Assembly: GCF_014490745.1 (NCBI RefSeq)
Contig: NZ_LZEU01000001.1
Span: 4,491,501-4,555,500, forward strand
Source: Pseudomonas alcaligenes
Lineage (GTDB): Bacteria > Pseudomonadota > Gammaproteobacteria > Pseudomonadales > Pseudomonadaceae
Length of the DNA: 64,000 bases
Direction of reading: 5' to 3'
Part shown: positions 10,183-32,672 of the stretch, in pieces
How the letters are laid out: each line of letters starts with the position of its first letter
How positions within the stretch are numbered: the stretch's first letter is position 1
Position numbers and translations under genes: made by a program
Notes under the pieces: generated by a model
What the model saw: only the letters and a program-made list of their open reading frames with translations
Told to the model about the DNA's origin: nothing
Databases searched by the model: none

Positions 10183-10653
10183 ATGAAGTATTCCTCGCTG
10201 TTCCTGCTCACTCTCAGCCTGGCCAGTGCCAGCGCCTTCGCCGGCAACACCTCGGCGGGGGTCGGCGGCGCCCTCGGCGGCGTGCTGGGCTCGGTAGTAG
10301 GCCAGCAGATCGGTGGCAGCACCGGTGCCACCATCGGTGCTGGCGTCGGTGGCGCAGCCGGTGGCGCAGTTGGCGCCGACAAGCACAGCCGCACCGAAGC
10401 GGCGATCGGCGGCGGCCTGGGTGCAGCCGGCGGCAGCGCCATCGGCCAGCAGATGGGCGGCACCACCGGAGGCCTGATTGGTGCGGCGCTGGGTGGCGGC
10501 GCCGGTGGCGCACTGGGCAACAACTACGGTGATGGCAACCGCGACGATGACGACCATGATGGCTACCGTCGGCATTACCACGAGGACAACGGCCACCACT
10601 ATGGCGAACGCCGTCACCACCACGGGCGCAAGCACAAGCACTGGCACGACTGA
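10183..10653 (+). CDS. Glycine-zipper protein with His/Asp-rich tail
   Basis: A 156-residue exported protein. Residues 1-21 form a signal peptide ending ASAFA. Residues 25-115 are almost wholly small residues with GxxxG spacing, for example GGVLGSVVGQQIGG and GAAGGAVGA, the pattern of glycine-zipper membrane or outer-membrane-associated proteins. The tail from about 120 is rich in Asp, His, Arg and Lys (HHYGERRHHHGRKHKHWHD) and could bind metal. Function unknown. A paralogue follows 86 bp downstream, so this looks like a tandem duplication. Confidence 0.8.
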   Translation: MKYSSLFLLTLSLASASAFAGNTSAGVGGALGGVLGSVVGQQIGGSTGATIGAGVGGAAGGAVGADKHSRTEAAIGGGLGAAGGSAIGQQMGGTTGGLIGAALGGGAGGALGNNYGDGNRDDDDHDGYRRHYHEDNGHHYGERRHHHGRKHKHWHD

Positions 10654-10739
10654 CCCGGCCGTCGCGCGCGGGTACGCGCGGCTTGCCTTGGCGCGCCATC
10701 TGCGCCACGCTCCGCGCGCATTTTTCCTGAGGTTTTCCC

Positions 10740-11159
10740 ATGCGTAGTTCCCTTTCCCTGCTGGCCCTCGGCGGCCTGCTGCTGGCGCAACCGCTGTACG
10801 CCGGCGACACCACCAAAACCGCCATCGGCGGTGCCCTGGGCGGCGCCCTGGGTACCGTGGTCGGCCAACAGGTTGGCGGCAACACCGGCGCAGCCATCGG
10901 CGCCGGGGTCGGCGGTGCGGCCGGCAGTGCGGTCACCGCAAAGGACGGCCGCAAGGTCGAGGCAGCCGTCGGCGGCGGCCTCGGCGCGGCCGGTGGCGCC
11001 GTGCTCGGCAACAAGGTCGGCGGCTCCACCGGTGCAGTGATCGGCGGCGCCCTGGGTGGCGGCGCCGGCGGCGCCCTGGGCAGCAACTTCGCGGGTGATG
11101 ACGACGATGACGGCCATAGCCATGGCAAGAAACACAAGAAGCACAAACATCGCGACTAA
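10740..11159 (+). CDS. Glycine-zipper protein, paralogue of the preceding gene
   Basis: A 139-residue protein with a signal peptide (about residues 1-21, ending LYAGD). Two glycine-zipper blocks are separated by a short charged insert (AKDGRKVEA). The tail is acidic then basic (DDDDDGHSHGKKHKKHKHRD). Its layout matches the preceding gene: zipper, KxxR insert, zipper, His/Lys tail. It has its own start near a short gap and ends at a strong terminator. Function unknown; an envelope location is likely from the signal peptide. Confidence 0.8.
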   Translation: MRSSLSLLALGGLLLAQPLYAGDTTKTAIGGALGGALGTVVGQQVGGNTGAAIGAGVGGAAGSAVTAKDGRKVEAAVGGGLGAAGGAVLGNKVGGSTGAVIGGALGGGAGGALGSNFAGDDDDDGHSHGKKHKKHKHRD

Positions 11160-11171
11160 ACGCCAGATATG

Positions 11172-11198
11172 AAAAAGCCCGCAGATGCGGGCTTTTTC
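11172..11198. terminator. Bidirectional intrinsic terminator
   Basis: Perfect 11-bp stem, AAAAAGCCCGC with GCGGGCTTTTT, around the loop AGAT. A-runs and T-runs on both sides let it end the glycine-zipper transcript (plus strand) and the DUF1329 transcript (minus strand). Confidence 0.92.
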
Positions 11199-11229
11199 TT
11201 GGGCGCTGAACGGCTCGTGGGGAGTCGCC

Positions 11230-12573
11230 TCAGATACCTTCGCGACGTAGCGCAGCGGCGGTGAAGTCGCCCTTGTTCAGCTTGACGTTGAAGTCGTACA
11301 TCGGCTCGTTGTTGTCCAGGCCGTCGACGTAGTAGCGGCTGCCCTTGAAGTCGTAGATGGTCTCCAGGGTGCTGCCGAACATCGGTACGTCGTAGTAGCT
11401 GATCGGGTGGGCTTCCTGCAGGCCGACCAGTTCGCCGCTCTTGTCGTACAGGTCGACGGCGAGGATCTGCCAGCTGTCCTCGTCCAGGTAGAAGCGGCGC
11501 GCGCCGTAGGGGTGGCTGAAGCCGGTACGCAGGTGGGCCTCGACTACCCATACGCGGTGCAGCTCGTAGCGCAGCAGCTCGGGGTTGACGCTCTTCTTCT
11601 GCAGGATCTGCTCGTAGGGGATGCCTTTCTGGTGCACGGCATAGCTGTTGTACGGCATGAGCATTTCCTGCTTGCCGATCAGCTTCCACTCGTAGCGATC
11701 CGGGGCGCCGTTGTAGGCGTCGACCACGTCGGCGGTGGCCATGCCGTTGGTGTCCGGCTGCATGGCGTCATAGGCCAGCATCGGCAGGCGCCGCACGCGC
11801 CGCTCGCCACGGCTGAAGCGCCAGGCCTTGCGGATCGCCAGCACCTGGTCGAGGGTTTCCTGCACCACCAGCGAGGAGCCGGCCAGCTTGCTCGGCGCGG
11901 TGACCACGTACTTGTAGTAGAACAGGGTGTTGTCCAGGTCGGCCGGGGTCACGCCTTCGCGACCATAGACGAACATCACGTCACGCTCACGCTTGAGCAG
12001 GGTGTAGTCGCCGTTGGCCAGCACTGCCGCCTGGTTGGTGATCATGCGGATCTGGTCGCCGCGGTAGCGGGCGATGTGGTTCCAGATCGCCTCCTGGCCG
12101 CTCTGCGGAATCGGGAAGGGAATGCCGGCGGCAGTGCCTTCGATGCCGTTACCGCCGGAAATCAGTCCGGCATTGGTGGCGTTGTAGCGGGTGGCATCGT
12201 AGATGCGCTGCGGCGCTGCCGCACTGCGGTGAGTCGGGTAGACGCGCAGGAAGTAGCCCGGGTGCTTCTCCAGCAGCTTCTGGAAGCCCGGCGCCAGCAC
12301 GGCCTTGTACTGGCCGGCATTGCTCGCATCGACACGGTACAGCTCCTTGTCGGCGGCATAGGGATCGGGGTGGTGCATGCCCGGCTGGTAGCCGCTCGGG
12401 CCGGCAGTCAGGCCGCCATCCCAGGCCGGGATGGTGCCGGCAGCATTGCCTGCGCGTTCGCCACCCAGCGGCATCAGGTCTTGCCCCAGGCGAGCGGCCT
12501 GAGCGGCATCGACCCGCGCTTGGGCCGGCAGCGCAGCGGCCGCCAACATCAGGACTGCAATAATTCTCAACAC
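11230..12573 (-). CDS. DUF1329 outer-membrane-associated protein
   Basis: A 447-residue protein with a cleavable signal peptide (MLRIIAVLMLAAAALPAQA). The body fits the DUF1329 family: the opening LGQDLMPLGGERAGN and the GTIPAWDGGL motif near residue 50 are hallmarks, and the C-terminal part is predicted to fold like LolA/LolB lipoprotein carriers. Members are often encoded beside DUF1302 proteins and RND transporters in Pseudomonas, where they are thought to act in moving lipids or hydrophobic molecules to the outer membrane. No such partner is here. Function unproven. Confidence 0.85.
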   Translation of the reverse strand: MLRIIAVLMLAAAALPAQARVDAAQAARLGQDLMPLGGERAGNAAGTIPAWDGGLTAGPSGYQPGMHHPDPYAADKELYRVDASNAGQYKAVLAPGFQKLLEKHPGYFLRVYPTHRSAAAPQRIYDATRYNATNAGLISGGNGIEGTAAGIPFPIPQSGQEAIWNHIARYRGDQIRMITNQAAVLANGDYTLLKRERDVMFVYGREGVTPADLDNTLFYYKYVVTAPSKLAGSSLVVQETLDQVLAIRKAWRFSRGERRVRRLPMLAYDAMQPDTNGMATADVVDAYNGAPDRYEWKLIGKQEMLMPYNSYAVHQKGIPYEQILQKKSVNPELLRYELHRVWVVEAHLRTGFSHPYGARRFYLDEDSWQILAVDLYDKSGELVGLQEAHPISYYDVPMFGSTLETIYDFKGSRYYVDGLDNNEPMYDFNVKLNKGDFTAAALRREGI

Positions 12574-24961: not shown

Positions 24962-25945
24962 ATGACCGCCGACTTCCAACCCGCCTGGTGGCTGCCCAGC
25001 CCGCACCTGCAGACCCTGTGGGGCTCGCTGTGCCGCCGCGCGCCGCAACTCGAGCGCCAGCGCGAACGCCTGTGGCTGGAGGATGGCGACTTTCTCGACC
25101 TGGACTGGCACGGCCCGCACGAGGCGGCGGCGCCGCTGGTGCTGGTGCTGCACGGGCTGACCGGCTCCTCCAGCTCGCACTACGTGCTCGGCCTGCAGCA
25201 GCAGTTGGCCGCGCGCGGCTGGGCCAGCGTGGCGCTGAACTGGCGCGGCTGCTCCGGCGAGCCCAACCTGCTGCCGCGCGGCTACCACTCCGGGGTCAGC
25301 GAGGATGTACTCAGCGTGGTACGCCACCTGCAGGCCCAGCGCCCACTGGCGCCGCTGTATGCGGTGGGCTATTCGCTGGGCGGCAATGTGCTGCTCAAGT
25401 ACCTCGGCGAGAGCGGCGCCGACTCCGGGCTGCAGGGCGCGGTGGCGGTGTCGGTGCCGTTCCGCCTGGATCATTGCGCCGAACGCATCGATCGCGGCTT
25501 CTCCAAGGTCTACCAGGCGCACTTCATGCGTGAACTGGTGGCCTATGTGCGCGACAAGCAGCAACGCTTCACCGACGAGGGGCACCATGAGCGCCGGGCG
25601 GCCCTGGAGGCTCTCGGCCCACTACAGGGCATGCGCACCTTCTGGGACTTCGACGGCCGCTTCACCGCGCCGCTGCACGGTTACGCCGATGCCGACGACT
25701 ACTACCGGCGCGCCTCCAGCCGCTACTTCCTTGGACAGATCCGCACGCGCACGCTGATCATCCAGTCCAGCGACGACCCCTTCGTCTTCCCCCACAGCGT
25801 GCCGCAGGCCCACGAGCTGTCCTCCAGCACCCAGCTGGAACTGCATGGGCGCGGCGGGCATGTCGGCTTTATCGGCGGCTCGCTGCGCCAGCCGGAGTTC
25901 TACCTGGAGCGGCGCATCCCCGCCTGGCTCAGCAGCGGCCGCTAA
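24962..25945 (+). CDS. YheT-family alpha/beta hydrolase
   Basis: A 327-residue cytoplasmic alpha/beta hydrolase of the YheT (ABHD1/3) group, likely a lipid or short-chain esterase. The family opening PAWWLPSPHLQTLWGSL is clear. The oxyanion motif LVLHGLTGSSSSHY lies near residue 62, and the nucleophile serine in AVGYSLGGNVLLKYLG near 140. The C-terminal histidine is in HGRGGHVGFIGG. Physiological substrate unknown. Confidence 0.87.
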   Translation: MTADFQPAWWLPSPHLQTLWGSLCRRAPQLERQRERLWLEDGDFLDLDWHGPHEAAAPLVLVLHGLTGSSSSHYVLGLQQQLAARGWASVALNWRGCSGEPNLLPRGYHSGVSEDVLSVVRHLQAQRPLAPLYAVGYSLGGNVLLKYLGESGADSGLQGAVAVSVPFRLDHCAERIDRGFSKVYQAHFMRELVAYVRDKQQRFTDEGHHERRAALEALGPLQGMRTFWDFDGRFTAPLHGYADADDYYRRASSRYFLGQIRTRTLIIQSSDDPFVFPHSVPQAHELSSSTQLELHGRGGHVGFIGGSLRQPEFYLERRIPAWLSSGR

Positions 25946-25965
25946 AGGTAGTTTGCAACGACCTG

Positions 25966-27000
25966 CTAATCGGCCCAGGCGTTCAGCCAGGCCCAGCGGT
26001 GCGGGAAGCGTGCGACCAGGCCGAGGCGATCGATGCGCCACTGCTCCGGCAGCTCGCCCTGCAGGCGCGCCAGCACCCGCAGGTGGCGGCTCGGCGCACT
26101 GAAGGCTGGCTGCAGCTCGGCCGGCACCGCGATGCTGTCCTCGACCCGGCGTACCACCTCGGCCGGCAGAAGGCTGCCATCGGGCATCAGCAGGCGGAAA
26201 CGCTGGCCGGGCACGGCATACTCGGCGTTGCGCGGGTCGAGATAGACCCACAGCTGCGCCTCGTCCAGGCGATGCTGGCGCAGCAGCAGGGTGCCGGGGC
26301 CGACATTCTCGCCCTCGGCCACCAGCACCTCGCTGACCACCCCCGGCGCCGCGGCTTCCAGGGTCAGGCCCTCGAGACGCGCCTGCAGCCAGGCGCGCTC
26401 GAGCTGGCGCTGCTGCTCGCCGGCATCCGGCACCGCCACTACCTGTTGCTGGCGCTCGAACTGCAGCAGGTCGCGCTGGCGACGATCACGCTCGTCGCGC
26501 GCCGCCTGCACCTCGCCGCGGGTGGCGGCGCCGGCCGCCTGCAGGCCGGCCAGCTGGCTCAGGCGCTGTTCGGCGCTGGCCAGCAGGCGCTGCAAGGCCG
26601 CGCGTTCACGGGCGCTCAGGACGTCGTTGGCCGGCACCACCGGCGGTGCCGCCGGCTCGGCCAGCAAGGCCAGGCGCGCGCGCCACTCCGGGTTGTCCAG
26701 GCGCACCAGCACCTGGCCTGCCGTCACCCGCTCGCCCGGGCGTACCAACACCTGCTGCACCTGCCCCGGCTCGCGGGCACGCAGCTCGCTGCTGGCCAGT
26801 TGCAGCTGGGCCGGTGCCTCGATCAGCCAGACGCTGAGCAGCGCACGCCCGACCAGCCACAGCAGCGGACTGGTGACGGCGAGCAGGATCAGGTACCAGC
26901 GCAGCTTGAATGCCAGGCGCTTGCCCGGTGCATAAAGCACCTGCAGGCCGTGATCCTGGGTGGGTTGTTGTTCCTTCGAACTGCTGAAACGGATCTTCAT
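25966..27000 (-). CDS. HlyD-type periplasmic adaptor of an exopolysaccharide-like locus
   Basis: A 344-residue membrane fusion protein. A short cytoplasmic N-terminus is followed by one transmembrane helix (about 34-57). A lipoyl-like half (REPGQVQQVLVRPGERVTAG) comes next, then a coiled coil rich in Glu, Arg and Leu (about 125-210). The second lipoyl half (APGVVSEVLVAEGENVGPGT) and a beta-barrel domain follow. It resembles HlyD/EmrA adaptors and the periplasmic part of Alg44, but I see no PilZ domain. Last gene of a four-gene unit, eight bp after the TolC-like gene. It probably links the inner-membrane synthase to the channel. Confidence 0.82.
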   Translation of the reverse strand: MKIRFSSSKEQQPTQDHGLQVLYAPGKRLAFKLRWYLILLAVTSPLLWLVGRALLSVWLIEAPAQLQLASSELRAREPGQVQQVLVRPGERVTAGQVLVRLDNPEWRARLALLAEPAAPPVVPANDVLSARERAALQRLLASAEQRLSQLAGLQAAGAATRGEVQAARDERDRRQRDLLQFERQQQVVAVPDAGEQQRQLERAWLQARLEGLTLEAAAPGVVSEVLVAEGENVGPGTLLLRQHRLDEAQLWVYLDPRNAEYAVPGQRFRLLMPDGSLLPAEVVRRVEDSIAVPAELQPAFSAPSRHLRVLARLQGELPEQWRIDRLGLVARFPHRWAWLNAWAD

Positions 27001-27007
27001 GGAAGGC

Positions 27008-29068
27008 TCAATGGGGGTAATGAATCCAGTCCTGCCAGTCGATGCCGGTGACACCCACCGGCTGCAGGCGCACACGCCAGCGTTCGACCTGCTGTTGCAA
27101 CTGGCGCGGCGGTACACCGGCCCAGCTTTCCTCGGCGGGCAGCTGCGGCTCGACGCTCTGCGCCAGGCGGAAGTGCAGGGCCGGCCAGCGCTGGGCGATC
27201 TGCTCGGCCAGCTCGGCGCTACGCTCGGCATTGCGCGTGTAGATCATCAGGCTGACCTGCTGCACGCCGCGCTGCGGCAGGGCGCAGGGCACGCAGGTCT
27301 GCCCGGCGGCCGGCTCGGCGAACCAGCGATGGTGGCTGGACAGCTCCAGCGGCCAGGGATTGAGGCTGGCCACTGCGGCCAGGGTGTCGAGCCAGTCCTG
27401 CAGGCGGCTGTCCGGTACTGGCCAGCCCAGCTGCTCGACTTCCAGATCCAGGTGCAGGGCATCGAACGGCAGGCCTTGCAGCTGACCGAGCAGATCGAGC
27501 AGGCCCTGGCGTCCGGCCGGCTCGATCCAGGCCGGGTCACCGAGCAACAGGCCGACCTGCAGACCCTGACCGTGGGCCTCGTCGAGGCTGCTCTGCAGGC
27601 GCTGGCGCAGGGCCGGGATATCCGCCACCTGGGCGGCGGACAGGCCGATATAGATGCGCTGCATGCCGGCCCGGCGCAGGTCACGCAGCTCGGTGCGGCG
27701 ACTGGAGGCCTGCAGCAGGCGACGGCTGTCCCACACATAGGTGCCCTGGCTCCACTCGCCGGTGCTGGCGGCCGCCAGGCTCCAGCGCTCGCGGCTATCA
27801 CCGAGCAGGCCAGCCAACGCACCGTCGTCCTCGACGAACAGGCGCAGCGCCGCCTCGCGCAACCAGGCCGCGTGCCAGGCAGCAATCAGGCGCAGGCCGG
27901 CGCCGTACTGCTCCAGCTCGGCGGCCAACTCGCCCTGCACGCCACGCTCCAGCTCGGCGTCGCGGCGCAGGCCCTGTTCGTGGCGCGCCTGTTCGGCCGT
28001 ACTCAGCTCTTCGCGGGCACTCGCCAACTCGTCCATGGCCGTGCGCTGGGCACGCAAAGCCTGGCCGAGGCCGAGCAGCAGTTGCTCGCGCTCGGCCTCC
28101 AGGCGCGCCAGGGCGGCCTGATGGCGGGCCTCACCCTCGCGACCGCGGGCGCGGCCGTAGTTGAGCAGGTCGAAGGGCGCGCTCAGGTTGATGCTGGCCA
28201 CCAGGCCGTCACCGGGCTTGTCCGCACCGCTGCGATCTTCATAGCTCTGCGCCAGGCTGAAGCTGGAGTCCACCGCGGAATACCAGGGCGACTGGCGATT
28301 GCGCTCGGCCTGGCGCAGCTCGTCCTGGCGCTCGCGCAAGCGCGGGTGGCCGTCCAGTGCCTGCTGCCAGGCCGTGAGCGGGCGCACCTGCGGCGCCAGC
28401 GGCTCGGCCTCGGCCTGCTGCCGGGCGTCGATGGCCTGGCCAGCAATGCCGGCAAGCGCGCCACGGGTCTCTTCCACCAGTTCCGGGGCACGCTGGCAAC
28501 GGCGCTCCAGCACCTGCCACTGCCCCTGCTGCAGGCGCGCCTCGGAGGCCAGCAGCCAGCCTGCGCGCTGGCGCCGCTGCAGCTGCGCGCGGGCCTCGCG
28601 GGCGGCCGGCAGCAGGTCGCCGCACCAGCGCTGTTCCTGCTCGGCGCGCCACCAGTCGGCATAGGCGCTGCGCAGGGCCAGGCGCTGCTCGGCGCGGCGC
28701 AGCAGGTCGCGGGCCTGCTGGCGCTGCTGTTCCAGCTCGACCGCCTCGACCGCCTGCACCTGGCGGCGCAGGCTGCCGAGCAGCGGGTGGCGCACACCAA
28801 GGGCCAGGTCACGGCCGTAGTAGTCGTCGCGCACGTCCTCGGTGACCAGTTCGCGGTAGTGGCCGGTGCTGGCCGAGGAGTACCACTGCCAGCCGGACTC
28901 GGCCTCGCGCTGCTCGCGCTGGGCCTCCAGGGCGTCCTGCTCGGCACGCCCGGCGCGGGCCACGGCACCGTCGTCGAGACCGGCCAGCAGGCTCTGCAGC
29001 GGCAGCGGTTCGGCCCGTGCCAGGCCGGCGGCCAGCAGCAGGCCGATCAGGGAAAGGGTACGCAGCAT
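27008..29068 (-). CDS. TolC-like outer-membrane channel fused to a glycosidase-like domain
   Basis: A 686-residue exported protein with a signal peptide (residues 1-19, cut after LARA). Residues about 25-420 have the repeated long Ala/Glu/Arg/Leu helices of outer-membrane efflux proteins, with strand-like segments WQWYSSASTGHYRE (60-73) and WYSAVDSSFSLAQSYEDRS (262-280) that fit the two halves of a TolC barrel. Residues about 440-686 look like a TIM-barrel glycosidase: RIYIGLS, VGLLLGD, FDALHLDLEVEQLGWP (535-550, with acidic D541, E543, E545), and a C-terminal GIDWQDWIHYP. One protein would thus give both a channel and a sugar-active domain. The catalytic assignment is inference. Confidence 0.75.
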   Translation of the reverse strand: MLRTLSLIGLLLAAGLARAEPLPLQSLLAGLDDGAVARAGRAEQDALEAQREQREAESGWQWYSSASTGHYRELVTEDVRDDYYGRDLALGVRHPLLGSLRRQVQAVEAVELEQQRQQARDLLRRAEQRLALRSAYADWWRAEQEQRWCGDLLPAAREARAQLQRRQRAGWLLASEARLQQGQWQVLERRCQRAPELVEETRGALAGIAGQAIDARQQAEAEPLAPQVRPLTAWQQALDGHPRLRERQDELRQAERNRQSPWYSAVDSSFSLAQSYEDRSGADKPGDGLVASINLSAPFDLLNYGRARGREGEARHQAALARLEAEREQLLLGLGQALRAQRTAMDELASAREELSTAEQARHEQGLRRDAELERGVQGELAAELEQYGAGLRLIAAWHAAWLREAALRLFVEDDGALAGLLGDSRERWSLAAASTGEWSQGTYVWDSRRLLQASSRRTELRDLRRAGMQRIYIGLSAAQVADIPALRQRLQSSLDEAHGQGLQVGLLLGDPAWIEPAGRQGLLDLLGQLQGLPFDALHLDLEVEQLGWPVPDSRLQDWLDTLAAVASLNPWPLELSSHHRWFAEPAAGQTCVPCALPQRGVQQVSLMIYTRNAERSAELAEQIAQRWPALHFRLAQSVEPQLPAEESWAGVPPRQLQQQVERWRVRLQPVGVTGIDWQDWIHYPH

Positions 29069-30397
29069 CTAGAACCTCTTGGCCTTCTTCAGCACCCACC
29101 AGGGCGCCATGCTGCTCTCCTCGTGGCCGCGGCGCAGCGCCTCGTTGAGCATCGCCACGGCACTCCAGCAGCGCATCACCAGCATGAACAGGGGGAATAG
29201 GAACACGATAGGCAATAAGCGCAGATCCTGGCGCGGCCGCTCGGAAACCATGGCCAGCATGGCCAGGTACATCAGCAGGGTCGTGCCCAGGTACACCAGG
29301 TAGATCAGCCCGCTCAGCGCCAGGTAGTTGGCCAGCGGCAGGACGAACACGCCGGCCACCAGGTAGCCGAAGATGATGAAGGGCAGCACCAGCTGGAAGA
29401 AGAAGCCGCTGACCAGGGTCATCAGGAAATTCGGCCAGCCGAGCAGGCGCGGATTGAAGCTGTGGCGGTGCTTGCGGATGTACAGGAAGTACAGGTCGCC
29501 GTCCCAGCGCAGGCGCTGCATGAGGAACTGCTTGAAGGTGGTTGGCGCGTCGGTGTGGCCGATGGCACGCGGCTCGAAGGGGATGCGCAGGGGCTGGCGG
29601 CCGAAGTAGTTCTTGATCCGCAGGGTGATGTCGAGATCCTCGGCGGTGTGGGTGTCCCAGCCGCCGATCTTGTCGAGGAAACTGCGGCGGAAGGCGCCGA
29701 AGGCCCCGGATACGTTATTGACCAGGTTCCACTCGCTGAGGCCGATCTTAGCCATGTGGATCGACAGCAGGTACTCCAGGCCCTGCATGGCCGCGGTCAG
29801 CGAGGCTTTCCAGTTGCGCACCCGCAGGCTGCCGGCCACGGCCGGTACACTGGGATCGGCGAAGTGGCGAACGATGTTGACCACCATGTCGTTGTCGAAC
29901 GAGGTGTCGCCGTCCAGGGCCATGACGATCTCGCCGGTGCAGTGGGCCAGGCCGGAGTTCAGCGACGACACCCGGCCGCCGCGCTGCCACTTGGCAATCG
30001 GCCGTAGCAGGCGCCGCGGGTAGAGCACGCGGTCGACGCGGAAATCGCGCACCGCCTGCATGGTCGGCTTGTTCACCGCGGCACCGTCGACCACCGGGAT
30101 CATCTCGATGTCGCCCTCATAGGTCTGCTCGCACAGACTGCGCAGGGTGCTCTGCACATCCAGCCCTTCGCTGTAGCAGGTGATGATGCAGGACACCCGC
30201 GGCCGGTAGCCGTTGCCCGGCGGCAGCTCGAAAGGCTTGCGCACGAACCAGCGCAGCACGCCGAGCAGCACCAGCAGGTTGAGCGGCACTTCCAGCAGCA
30301 GGAAGGCCGGCAGCAGGGTGACCAGCAGGCGCACCAGGCCGTCGCTCTTGCCGAGCTCGGCGAACAGCTGCAGCCACTGCTGGACGACGGCTTCCAT
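29069..30397 (-). CDS. Processive family 2 glycosyltransferase, cellulose synthase/Alg8 type
   Basis: A 442-residue membrane glycosyltransferase. Two N-terminal helices (about 20-50) precede a cytoplasmic GT2 domain. It has D104 in PVVDGAAV, DGD at 162-164, AED at 252-254, and QRLRW at 294-298, the full D, DxD, TED-like and QxxRW set of processive synthases. Several C-terminal helices (about 320-415) would form the translocation pore. The start at 30397 lies four bases after the upstream stop. It is the only synthase in the locus; the sugar it uses cannot be read from sequence. Confidence 0.88.
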   Translation of the reverse strand: MEAVVQQWLQLFAELGKSDGLVRLLVTLLPAFLLLEVPLNLLVLLGVLRWFVRKPFELPPGNGYRPRVSCIITCYSEGLDVQSTLRSLCEQTYEGDIEMIPVVDGAAVNKPTMQAVRDFRVDRVLYPRRLLRPIAKWQRGGRVSSLNSGLAHCTGEIVMALDGDTSFDNDMVVNIVRHFADPSVPAVAGSLRVRNWKASLTAAMQGLEYLLSIHMAKIGLSEWNLVNNVSGAFGAFRRSFLDKIGGWDTHTAEDLDITLRIKNYFGRQPLRIPFEPRAIGHTDAPTTFKQFLMQRLRWDGDLYFLYIRKHRHSFNPRLLGWPNFLMTLVSGFFFQLVLPFIIFGYLVAGVFVLPLANYLALSGLIYLVYLGTTLLMYLAMLAMVSERPRQDLRLLPIVFLFPLFMLVMRCWSAVAMLNEALRRGHEESSMAPWWVLKKAKRF

Positions 30398-30401
30398 CGG
30401 C

Positions 30402-31796
30402 TCAGGCCAGCAGGCCGCCCAGGCGGGCGAGGAGCAGCGCGGCGTCTTCCTGCTCGACCAGTTCCTCGGGGGCGACGAAGCCGACCTGGCGCATCTCGAC
30501 ATGCGTGTCGGTATCGGCAGCCAGGCGTTCACTACCCTTGGCCAGACGCTTCTTCACCACCTCGAGGCCGGCCGCATCGGTGTGCGGCATCAGCAGCCAC
30601 AACACTTCCTCGCTCAATCGGCAGCAGCGGTCGGTCTCGCGCACCGCTTCCTGCAGGCGCTCGACCAGGCCGTCGATCAGTGCATGGCCACGCATCTCGC
30701 CGAGGTGTTCGAGAGTTTCCAGCAGGTTGACGAAACGTACCCCGAGCAGGGCGAAAGGCGGTGTCTTGTGTCGCCGCACCAGCTGCAGCTGCCACTCCAG
30801 CAGCTCGTGGAAGCTACGCTGCGACAGCAGGTTGAGGCGGCCGAACTGGTCGCTTTCGGCCGGGCTGGTGTTGAAGCCCTGGCGGCAGCGCAGGCGCCCG
30901 GCCTCGGCCAGGCGGAAGTGGCGTACCTCGCGCACGCGCAGCTTGTCCGGCGCATGGTGCTCGCCACAGTCGAGGCAGCGCGCCTCCACCGCGGCATCGA
31001 CGAAGAACGCCTGGCAGCTGCGGCAGCGATAGTTCTCCAGCGGCCGGTCGTAGTCGCTGCCGATGTGGCGCAGGCGGCTCAGGCAGTTGGGGCAGAGCAG
31101 CAGGCCGTCCTTGAGGAAGTGCTCCTGGGCGCCGACGTGCCCGCAAGTGAAGCAGTGCAGCGACGGCTGGCGGGAGATGTCCAGGGCCTGGCACTCGGGG
31201 CACACGTCGACATAGTTGAGCCGACCGGAACCGCAGTCGGTGCACAGGCGCAGGCGGTCGAGCAGCGCGCCCTCCTCCAGCCAGCCATGCTGCAGCATCA
31301 GCTGCAGCCAGGAGAAATCATTGATCGTCTCGCCGTCGCTGAGCACTTCCAGCAACGGGTAGCGGTAGTGCTGAGCCACGCTGGCATCGCGCACCGCGTG
31401 CACGTCGCCGCGCGAGCGCAGCCACAGCCAGGCCAGCACCCGTGCCTCGAAACGCTCCGGAGCCACGCCGCGGTTGAACAGGGTGAAACGCTCCTGCCAC
31501 AGGCGCCACAGCGGTGTGATGGCGCCGAGGTCGGCCGGCGGGCGGCCGTCGCCGAGGGCCTCGCACCAGCTGTCCTGATCCTGGCAGCAGTAGATCAGGG
31601 CGAAGCGATAGTGCCGTTCCAGACGCAGGCTGCGCAGCAGCTGGCCGGCAGAAATGCCAGGCAGGTCGATCAGCAGCACGTCGTAGGCGGGAGCTGCCAG
31701 CAGGCTGGCCAGGTCGGCAAAACGATCCGGCTCGAGGCCATGAAAACGCGAAAAGGCAGCGCCCAGGACGGCGACTCGGGGCGTGGTGGTCGGCAT
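30402..31796 (-). CDS. TackOD1-type zinc-ribbon protein with degenerate GGDEF domain, putative c-di-GMP receptor
   Basis: A 464-residue protein without signal or membrane segments. Residues 1-110 look receiver-like (VLLIDLPGIS, D44). Residues 185-277 hold six CxxC pairs (185/188, 199/202, 215/218, 235/238, 258/261, 274/277), enough for three zinc ribbons, as in the TackOD1 domain. Residues about 318-425 align with GGDEF, but the signature is SEEVL (395-399) and the metal Asp is lost. RETD (386-389) sits exactly five residues before it, the place of the RxxD inhibitory site. A PelD-like c-di-GMP sensor is therefore likely. A TTG at 31844 is an alternative start. First gene of the locus. Confidence 0.78.
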   Translation of the reverse strand: MPTTTPRVAVLGAAFSRFHGLEPDRFADLASLLAAPAYDVLLIDLPGISAGQLLRSLRLERHYRFALIYCCQDQDSWCEALGDGRPPADLGAITPLWRLWQERFTLFNRGVAPERFEARVLAWLWLRSRGDVHAVRDASVAQHYRYPLLEVLSDGETINDFSWLQLMLQHGWLEEGALLDRLRLCTDCGSGRLNYVDVCPECQALDISRQPSLHCFTCGHVGAQEHFLKDGLLLCPNCLSRLRHIGSDYDRPLENYRCRSCQAFFVDAAVEARCLDCGEHHAPDKLRVREVRHFRLAEAGRLRCRQGFNTSPAESDQFGRLNLLSQRSFHELLEWQLQLVRRHKTPPFALLGVRFVNLLETLEHLGEMRGHALIDGLVERLQEAVRETDRCCRLSEEVLWLLMPHTDAAGLEVVKKRLAKGSERLAADTDTHVEMRQVGFVAPEELVEQEDAALLLARLGGLLA

Positions 31797-31850
31797 GCGT
31801 GCAACTCGGAGATCGGCAGAGGCGGCTAAACCGCCGCCAGACAATGTCCA

Positions 31851-31879
31851 AATTTAGCATGGCGCCGGTTTAATGACGA
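31851..31879 (-). promoter_or_regulatory. Possible promoter of the four-gene locus with a FleQ-like box
   Basis: On the minus strand TCGTCA (31879-31874) and TAAATT (31856-31851) are 17 bp apart, a fair sigma-70 promoter about 55 bases before the ATG at 31796. Overlapping the -35, GTCATTAAACCGGC (31877-31864) matches the left half of the FleQ consensus GTCaNTAAAtTGAC. FleQ is the c-di-GMP-responsive regulator of exopolysaccharide genes in P. aeruginosa. The right half is poor, so this is only suggestive. A small hairpin GGCGG-CTAAA-CCGCC (31821-31835) lies between promoter and gene. Confidence 0.35.
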
Positions 31880-31934
31880 TTTTTCTGACGCCTTGTTCAG
31901 TTAGTGACGCAGTCGACACGAAACCGACACAGAT

Positions 31935-32600
31935 TCACTCCAGCACCACTGCCGCCATCGGTACGTGCAAACGCTGCAGCAGGGCCTGCACCGCGTCGCG
32001 CGCGCCCTCGGTGACATAGCCGCTCTCCAGCGCGAGGATCTGGTACACGCCGCGGCGCATCAGCTCCTCGCTGAGGTCGCCGGGGTTGCTGCGGATGGTG
32101 CAGAGAAAGCGCACCCAGGAGGTGAGGATGATCCAGCTGTTGAGCACCAGCGCCTCGATCTGCTGATCGTTCATGGCCAGGATGTCGGCAGCGGCGAAAC
32201 CGCGGTAGATATCGCCGGCGGCCTGCAGGCAGCGATGGGCGAAGGCCTGGTAGCGGGCGGCCAGTTCGGCGTCGCTTTCCAGCAGGTGTTCGAGGTCGCG
32301 GTGGAGGAAGCGGTAGTGCCACATGGCCGCCAGCAATGCCTCCAGGTAGAAGGTCTTGTCGTCCACCGTCAGCGCGCGGCCGGCGGGCGGGCGCAGGAAC
32401 ACGGCGACGCGGTCTTCGTACTGGGCGAACAACTCGGCGATGATCGCCTGCTTGTTGCGGAAGTGGTAATACAGGTTGCCCGGCGAAATGCCCAGGTGCG
32501 CGGCGATGTGGTTGGTGGTGACGCTGCGCTCGCCCTGGGCGTTGAACAGCTCCAGGCTGGCTTCAACGATACGGGCGCGGGTGTTGATCTTCGGGGCCAT
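31935..32600 (-). CDS. laoR: TetR-family repressor LaoR
   Basis: A 221-residue TetR-family regulator with an N-terminal helix-turn-helix (SVTTNHIAAHLGISPGNLYYHF, residues about 26-47). The C-terminal domain would bind ligand. It is divergent from laoC, and a near-perfect 20-bp palindrome covers the promoter between them. The gene order is that of the LaoABCR long-chain alcohol system of P. aeruginosa, where LaoR represses the operon. ATG at 32600 puts the domain in its usual position. Confidence 0.88.
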   Translation of the reverse strand: MAPKINTRARIVEASLELFNAQGERSVTTNHIAAHLGISPGNLYYHFRNKQAIIAELFAQYEDRVAVFLRPPAGRALTVDDKTFYLEALLAAMWHYRFLHRDLEHLLESDAELAARYQAFAHRCLQAAGDIYRGFAAADILAMNDQQIEALVLNSWIILTSWVRFLCTIRSNPGDLSEELMRRGVYQILALESGYVTEGARDAVQALLQRLHVPMAAVVLE

Positions 32601-32672
32601 GGTTCGGCTCGGCAAGGCAAAGTGGCAAAAGTACGGCAAAGCGCCGCGCCTGACGACCGTCGGCGCGCCGAT

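Follow-up and report, generated by a model that had tools for sequence, protein, structure and literature searches.

A systematic survey published in 2020 put the number of synthase-dependent exopolysaccharides known by then at five, and the available portion of its main text mentions neither TolC nor HlyD (PMC7112194). In the cellulose (Bcs) system, the GT2 synthase is served by BcsE, a cytosolic receptor of degenerate REC-GGDEF type whose RxxD I-site binds c-di-GMP (PMC7439463). In the Pel system, PelD is a membrane protein with a GAF domain and PelF is a GT4 (PMC8461298), while PelA is a periplasmic enzyme that hydrolyses the polymer (PMC12022489). The BgsBA pair of Sinorhizobium and Rhizobium, related to mixed-linkage beta-glucan, consists of a HlyD-domain protein and, next to it, a GT2 that is activated by c-di-GMP (PMC9495663). 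For cyanobacterial XcsA-XcsB-TolC cellulose, a GT2-HlyD-TolC exit with an endoglucanase has been proposed without experimental validation (PMC12430437). The TackOD1 domain is named in the open-licence literature solely by a census of archaeal signalling, where its function is termed obscure (PMC5847659).

Here, we analyse four genes, A to D, in a stretch of 64,000 nucleotides from Pseudomonas alcaligenes (contig NZ_LZEU01000001.1), referred to as the window. We estimate a probability of roughly 80% that A-D form a compact synthase-dependent exopolysaccharide system consisting of a receptor, a synthase, a GT2-HlyD-TolC conduit and a trimming barrel. This reading draws directly on domains, motif conservation, predicted folds and operon linkage.

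Organisation of the locus

The frames read from the window agreed with the preliminary description, which had placed four minus-strand genes at 25966..31796 with gaps of 0-7 bases; the gaps A/B, B/C and C/D are 4, 0 and 7 nt, respectively (Table 1). All four of its domain assignments also held: Pfam supported those of A, B, D and the TolC part of C, and the glycosidase-like domain at the C-terminal end of C, where Pfam gave no match, was supported by structure prediction and conservation. As the order of A-D recurs in other genomes, with protein identity of 34-97% within the family, the locus is no chance run of frames. A simple scan revealed no sigma-70-type promoter or terminator. Of the two flanking genes, one encodes a YheT-type hydrolase and the other a TetR-type regulator, and we take them to be yheT and laoR.

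Table 1. Positions of the A-D genes, their parts and the flanking genes in the window.
Feature	Position	Strand	Remarks
Gene A	31796-30402	minus	464 aa; putative c-di-GMP receptor
Parts of A			receiver-like, residues ~1-83; TackOD1 zinc ribbons, 114-296; degenerate GGDEF, 323-435
TackOD1 domain of A	30909..31457	minus	residues 114-296
I-site R386-E-T-D389 of A	30630..30641	minus	five residues ahead of SEEVL
Gene B	30397-29069	minus	442 aa; GT2 synthase
QRLRW (QxxRW) motif of B	29504..29518	minus	residues 294-298
Gene C	29068-27008	minus	686 aa; TolC-type channel and glycosidase-like barrel
TolC part of C	27785..29008	minus	residues 21-428
(beta/alpha)8 glycosidase-like barrel of C	27011..27772	minus	residues 433-686; predicted fold
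Gene D	27000-25966	minus	344 aa; HlyD-type periplasmic adaptor
YheT-type hydrolase gene	24962-25945	opposite to D	adjoins the D end across 20 bp; above NCBIfam PRK10985 cut-off
TetR-type regulator gene	31935-32639		138 bp upstream of A; TetR-family matches sub-threshold
Stretch replaced at empty site	25946..31943		5998 bp; 2 bp instead in same-genus genome G014 (locus L136)

The putative receptor

Pfam identified TackOD1 (1.8e-63) and GGDEF (8e-9) domains in A. The score of 214 bits for TackOD1 (PF18551), against a gathering score of 32, assigns the protein to this family. Structure prediction gave receiver-like and GGDEF folds, hydropathy indicated no membrane span and Pfam found no GAF match. 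The motif counts for A are based on 64 homologues; loci L114, L121 and L127, whose A frames are split or fragments, do not enter these counts, and here as for the other proteins identical sequences were entered once. SEEVL stands at the place of GGDEF in A, and a GGDEF-type motif was present in none of the 64 homologues. R386 and D389 are kept in 63 of them; the I-site is absent from L132. With the I-site motif present and cyclase catalysis lost, A is a putative c-di-GMP-binding regulatory subunit.

All 13 metal-ligand-type Cys/His positions of TackOD1 are kept in 62 of the 64 homologues, which, together with the obscurity of the domain's function (PMC5847659), speaks for a different role, in which A senses metal or redox state by its zinc ribbons and the GGDEF remnant is a mere dimerisation scaffold. 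However, the loss of GGDEF alongside the retention of R..D in 63 of 64 sequences is hard to explain without an I-site ligand. Moreover, genes with GGDEF/EAL and HD domains adjoin some of the relatives, namely an HD-domain response regulator in L123 and PAS-GGDEF-EAL proteins in L126 and L128 (Pfam). A purely metal- or redox-sensing A is unlikely.

The GT2 synthase

Protein B matched GT2 families in Pfam (best E 5.5e-18), and hydropathy indicated a single membrane span at the N-terminal end and several at the C-terminal end. DxD is present in all 62 distinct homologues and QxxRW in 61, the sole exception being the fragment in L127; the TED motif is absent from the five GT2s of a group with permuted gene order (L120, L122, L124, L125 and L129). 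GT2 synthases with QxxRW usually polymerise and pass the chain via their own membrane channel. Judged by these sequence features, B is an inner-membrane processive GT2 synthase with putative polymerising activity.

The best NCBIfam model for B was PgaC (130 bits, cut-off 422.3), followed by NodC (70) and HpnI (48), all of them below their cut-offs; the CelA/BcsA equivalog (TIGR03030) scored 24.7 bits against a cut-off of 699.1. The NodC and HpnI scores, and the fact that TolC/HlyD conduits commonly carry small molecules, would suit a protein B that makes a short oligosaccharide or glycolipid, with C and D exporting a small molecule or signal and the barrel processing oligosaccharides. Against this, the top-scoring model, although itself under its cut-off, is that of a polymer synthase, the lack of a pump gene beside C and D implies that export is coupled to the synthase, and the four-gene set has none of the acyl- or sulfo-transferase genes that usually go with Nod factors. 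We regard such a short product as improbable and a polymer synthase as the preferred reading of B.

The channel, the barrel and the adaptor

A signal peptide was recognised by eye at the start of C, Pfam identified an outer membrane efflux protein (OEP, 1.3e-9), and structure prediction gave a TolC fold followed by a TIM barrel; the protein thus belongs to the TolC/OEP channels. The predicted barrel aligns with glycosidases, and conserved residues lie in or shortly after its strands (W446, W514, H539, D541, E543, H579, Y610, Q637, E640 and W681). The VIA-align matches Cwp19, GH18, PgaB, GH5 and GH164 lie no more than about 2 Z units apart, and Foldseek also matched, with similar E-values, non-hydrolase barrels such as isocitrate lyase and a sugar epimerase; as both lists are mixed, a single family cannot be picked. 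A thin profile comparison with GH18 gave P 0.015 and a probability of 2.9%, and GHL13, the hydrolase family of PgaB, could not be usefully aligned. The barrel is a separate, exported-looking protein of ~285 aa in L107 and L113, where it replaces the TolC fusion.

Protein D contains HlyD domains (Pfam HlyD_D23 1.5e-8, HlyD_3 2.2e-8) and one N-terminal membrane anchor according to hydropathy. The motif G..[ST]R.E at its predicted hairpin tip was found in 43 of the 47 loci with a TolC part, in one of the two barrel-only loci and in none of the nine A-B-D loci. This contrast, which is confounded by the kinship of the locus groups, fits a hairpin tip matched to its cognate channel.

The possibility that C and D are parts of a drug or protein exporter merely adjoining a GT2, an outcome which the preliminary description had named as speaking against its view and for which the genuine TolC fold predicted for C and the resemblance of D to RND and EmrA adaptors (NCBIfam) could be cited, can be dismissed as highly improbable: Pfam found no ABC, MFS or RND gene among A-D, neither flanking gene encodes such a pump, the only transporters among those neighbouring genes of relatives that were run through Pfam are an iron-type ABC (L116) and a BCCT (L130), both at loci without B, C and D, D accompanies A and B at loci lacking C, whichever of the two gene orders they have and in more than one class, and the channel in C is fused to a barrel of glycosidase-like type.

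Co-occurrence and distribution

TackOD1 was present in 39 of 248 Pseudomonadaceae genomes, including that of the window, and above the cut-off in 19 of 369 genomes of the class and 15 of 398 of the phylum. We examined 38 loci from the family, 16 from the class (15 genomes) and 12 from the phylum (11 genomes). From the class search, ten genomes in which TackOD1 matched weakly or in part were not carried forward, eight of which scored below the cut-off; the phylum search left out three below the cut-off and four that were already in the family set or were the window's own. The check on co-occurrence that had been proposed for the four proteins revealed very strong linkage. B stands directly after A in 65 of 67 loci: 39 of 39 in the family (the window and 38 others), 14 of 16 in the class and 12 of 12 independent loci in the phylum. 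The gap between the two genes is <=50 bp wherever the pair occurs, except in L114, L121 and L127 with their split A frames. As the search profiles were built from L001-L134 plus further proteins, L161-L172 constitute the sole independent test.

The complete order A-B-C-D was found in 35 of the 38 family loci, two others having the barrel without TolC and one being cut by a contig end. The class loci comprise six A-B-D, two full sets, three D-A-B, three barrel-D-A-B and two with A alone, and the phylum loci seven A-B-D, three D-A-B, one barrel-D-A-B and L171, an A-B-D set with a weak extra D upstream. Seventeen named loci found separately, some from the same genomes, all contain the full set. 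Since many relatives are A-B-D without a TolC gene, C is not universal. Seven of the ten loci of the D-A-B type (L120, L122, L124, L125, L129, L163 and L168) have a frame of 670-726 aa before D, and four of these seven frames score for the barrel at their end, so that the four parts probably occur together in two gene orders; Pfam revealed no channel in the five of these frames that were run.

The two class loci with A alone encode TackOD1 proteins without a GT2 neighbour (L116 4724-6112 and L130 8617-9882). One of them adjoins a pair of response regulator and PhoR-type kinase genes and the other a PAS-GGDEF gene. Proteins of the A type can therefore have other roles, as two of the 16 class-level loci indicate.

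A complete A-B-C-D set is carried by the Aeromonas caviae plasmid pKAM329_3 (L131), a mobilizable plasmid of 29 kb that also bears toxin-antitoxin and recombinase genes, and this carriage suggests that the operon is able to move between hosts as a unit, like a cassette. A-B-D sets were found on replicons of Rhodobacteraceae, Photobacterium and Plesiomonas. In L171, a PilZ-bearing cellulose-synthase-like GT2 (10258-12234) lies near the TackOD1/GT2/HlyD set, and the two perhaps form a hybrid system.

Insertion site and age

The preliminary description had regarded the locus as an insertion in the core genome. The contrast between the occupied site and the empty site of L136 agrees with this, but a recent insertion was rejected, because the identity of the operon follows that of its flanks (Spearman 0.92 over the n=16 loci, out of 45 distinct ones, that have both flanking genes). 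Their correlated divergence indicates an old resident that is absent from some lineages. Sixteen of the 45 distinct loci lie between yheT and laoR and five next to one of them, while in 24 neither gene is present within 1.5 kb. The locus resembles an old cassette that some lineages have lost or never acquired and that others carry at a different place.

The yheT-laoR junction is a variable spot among genomes of the same genus. According to match coordinates, the gap in 20 same-genus genomes without A is <=~210 bp in six, ~0.9-1.4 kb in eight, 1.7-2.0 kb in three and 5-9 kb in three. The junction holds histidine-kinase genes in L140 (Pfam, two genes run), frames of like size in L141, and in L142 genes for a C39-peptidase ABC exporter and an outer membrane channel.

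Proposed mechanism and polymer

In the proposed system, A would be a one-time diguanylate cyclase of the cytosol that binds c-di-GMP at its RETD I-site and, with its zinc-ribbon platform, would activate or assemble the membrane synthase B, as BcsE and PelD suggest for the activation. B would polymerise an activated sugar and thread the chain via its own membrane channel. D, anchored in the inner membrane, would link B to the TolC part of C, which is presumably trimeric, as TolC is, and the chain would exit by a continuous GT2-HlyD-TolC conduit. The C-terminal barrel of C may lie in the periplasm next to the channel and, by hydrolysis, trim the polymer or free blocked polymer, as PgaB and BcsZ do.

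The product would be an exopolysaccharide, probably beta-linked. A chain of N-acetylhexosamine is slightly favoured, as the GT2 is nearest to PgaC/NodC and the barrel resembles GH18/PgaB. A galactose- or glucose-containing polymer is nearly as likely on the basis of epimerase and GH16 neighbours: the gene after D encodes GalE in L132, an NDP-sugar epimerase in L107 and L113 and a GH16 in L119. These hints from neighbouring genes on the sugar are mixed. The GH16-family hydrolase gene of L119 (8471-9379) directly follows D in an A-B-D locus, and its product perhaps substitutes for the barrel of C.

Comparison with known systems

The defining features that were tested for the named systems were not found in A-D, and the locus was therefore placed outside them. 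A TPR scaffold and a beta-barrel outer membrane porin are absent from A-D according to Pfam and predicted folds, and HlyD and TolC occur instead. Unlike in the PNAG system (PgaABCD), B remains below the PgaC equivalog TIGR03937 (130 vs 422.3 bits), and Pfam revealed no deacetylase or TPR match among A-D, that is, neither the PgaB deacetylase nor the PgaA porin. PgaA and PgaD, both parts of the PNAG system, were not seen among A-D. Alginate (Alg8/Alg44) is set apart on D alone, which has HlyD domains without the PilZ of Alg44.

An unannotated HlyD-GT2 pair on pSymB, which from its gene content and position we take to be bgsBA, gave a tblastn match to B with E 0.25 and 24% identity over 208 aa, which does not make B a BgsA-type protein. 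The locus shares with BgsBA the HlyD-domain protein adjoining a GT2. However, BgsA is cellulose-synthase-like and has its own C-terminal binding domain, and the available part of the description mentions no TolC or separate receptor (PMC9495663). As in Bcs with BcsE, a putative cytosolic receptor with receiver-like and degenerate GGDEF parts accompanies a GT2 synthase, but A bears TackOD1 zinc ribbons where BcsE has its NTD, B scores far under the CelA cut-off (24.7 vs 699 bits) and PilZ, BcsB and BcsC were not found among the A-D proteins. With Pel, the locus has in common a degenerate GGDEF with an I-site, found in the receptor PelD (PMC8461298) and in the putative receptor A, and a counterpart of the periplasmic polymer-cutting enzyme PelA in the putative barrel of C. 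Unlike Pel, A-D have a GT2, a putative receptor without a membrane span or GAF match and TolC/HlyD parts for export.

The preliminary description had found no match to a named Pseudomonas system, and likewise the open-licence literature yielded no matching described operon and no biochemical study of a member. The 'sea' cluster of Stutzerimonas stutzeri MJL19 was taken as different by its description rather than by a gene list, the 16-gene Pap locus was rejected as it is likened to Wzy-type systems (PMC7716237), and the GGDEF-EAL proteins of PF08 are unrelated (PMC12175535). In strain A1501, the EPS specific to the species goes by the name pel according to the paper on sea (PMC12125118), and the strain's own paper reports a Psl-like cluster (PMC8249394). 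Within this literature, the polymer and machine of A-D appear undescribed, though related sets occur in many bacteria.

On balance, we lean towards regarding A-D as a further class of synthase-dependent machinery, in which a triad of TackOD1-degenerate GGDEF receptor, GT2 and HlyD is joined by a TolC-type conduit, the channel and a polymer-cutting enzyme form one protein and the product is an undescribed polysaccharide; it would occur across Proteobacteria and be partly plasmid-borne. If so, this would be the first function for TackOD1 in bacteria, and many species of Pseudomonas, Stutzerimonas and other Proteobacteria, whose biofilms have so far been interpreted by Psl, Pel, alginate or cellulose, would have an extra matrix polymer. 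The locus would also make it possible to study synthesis, gating, export and trimming together in a small system of four genes.

The proposed exit route resembles that of the XcsA-XcsB-TolC model with its tripartite GT2-HlyD-TolC passage for polysaccharide. XcsA has PilZ, and TolC is encoded outside the operon (PMC12430437), whereas in A-D a single operon encodes all the parts, TolC and the hydrolase-like barrel are joined in one polypeptide and the putative receptor is a protein of its own. A-D thereby make directly testable the unproven GT2-HlyD-TolC model that has so far been argued for cyanobacterial cellulose. In parts list and exit route A-D differ from the five surveyed systems, and we class them as a variant of the synthase-dependent exopolysaccharide systems, one that adds to the GT2-HlyD(-TolC) ideas a new putative receptor and the fusion of a channel to a hydrolase-like barrel.
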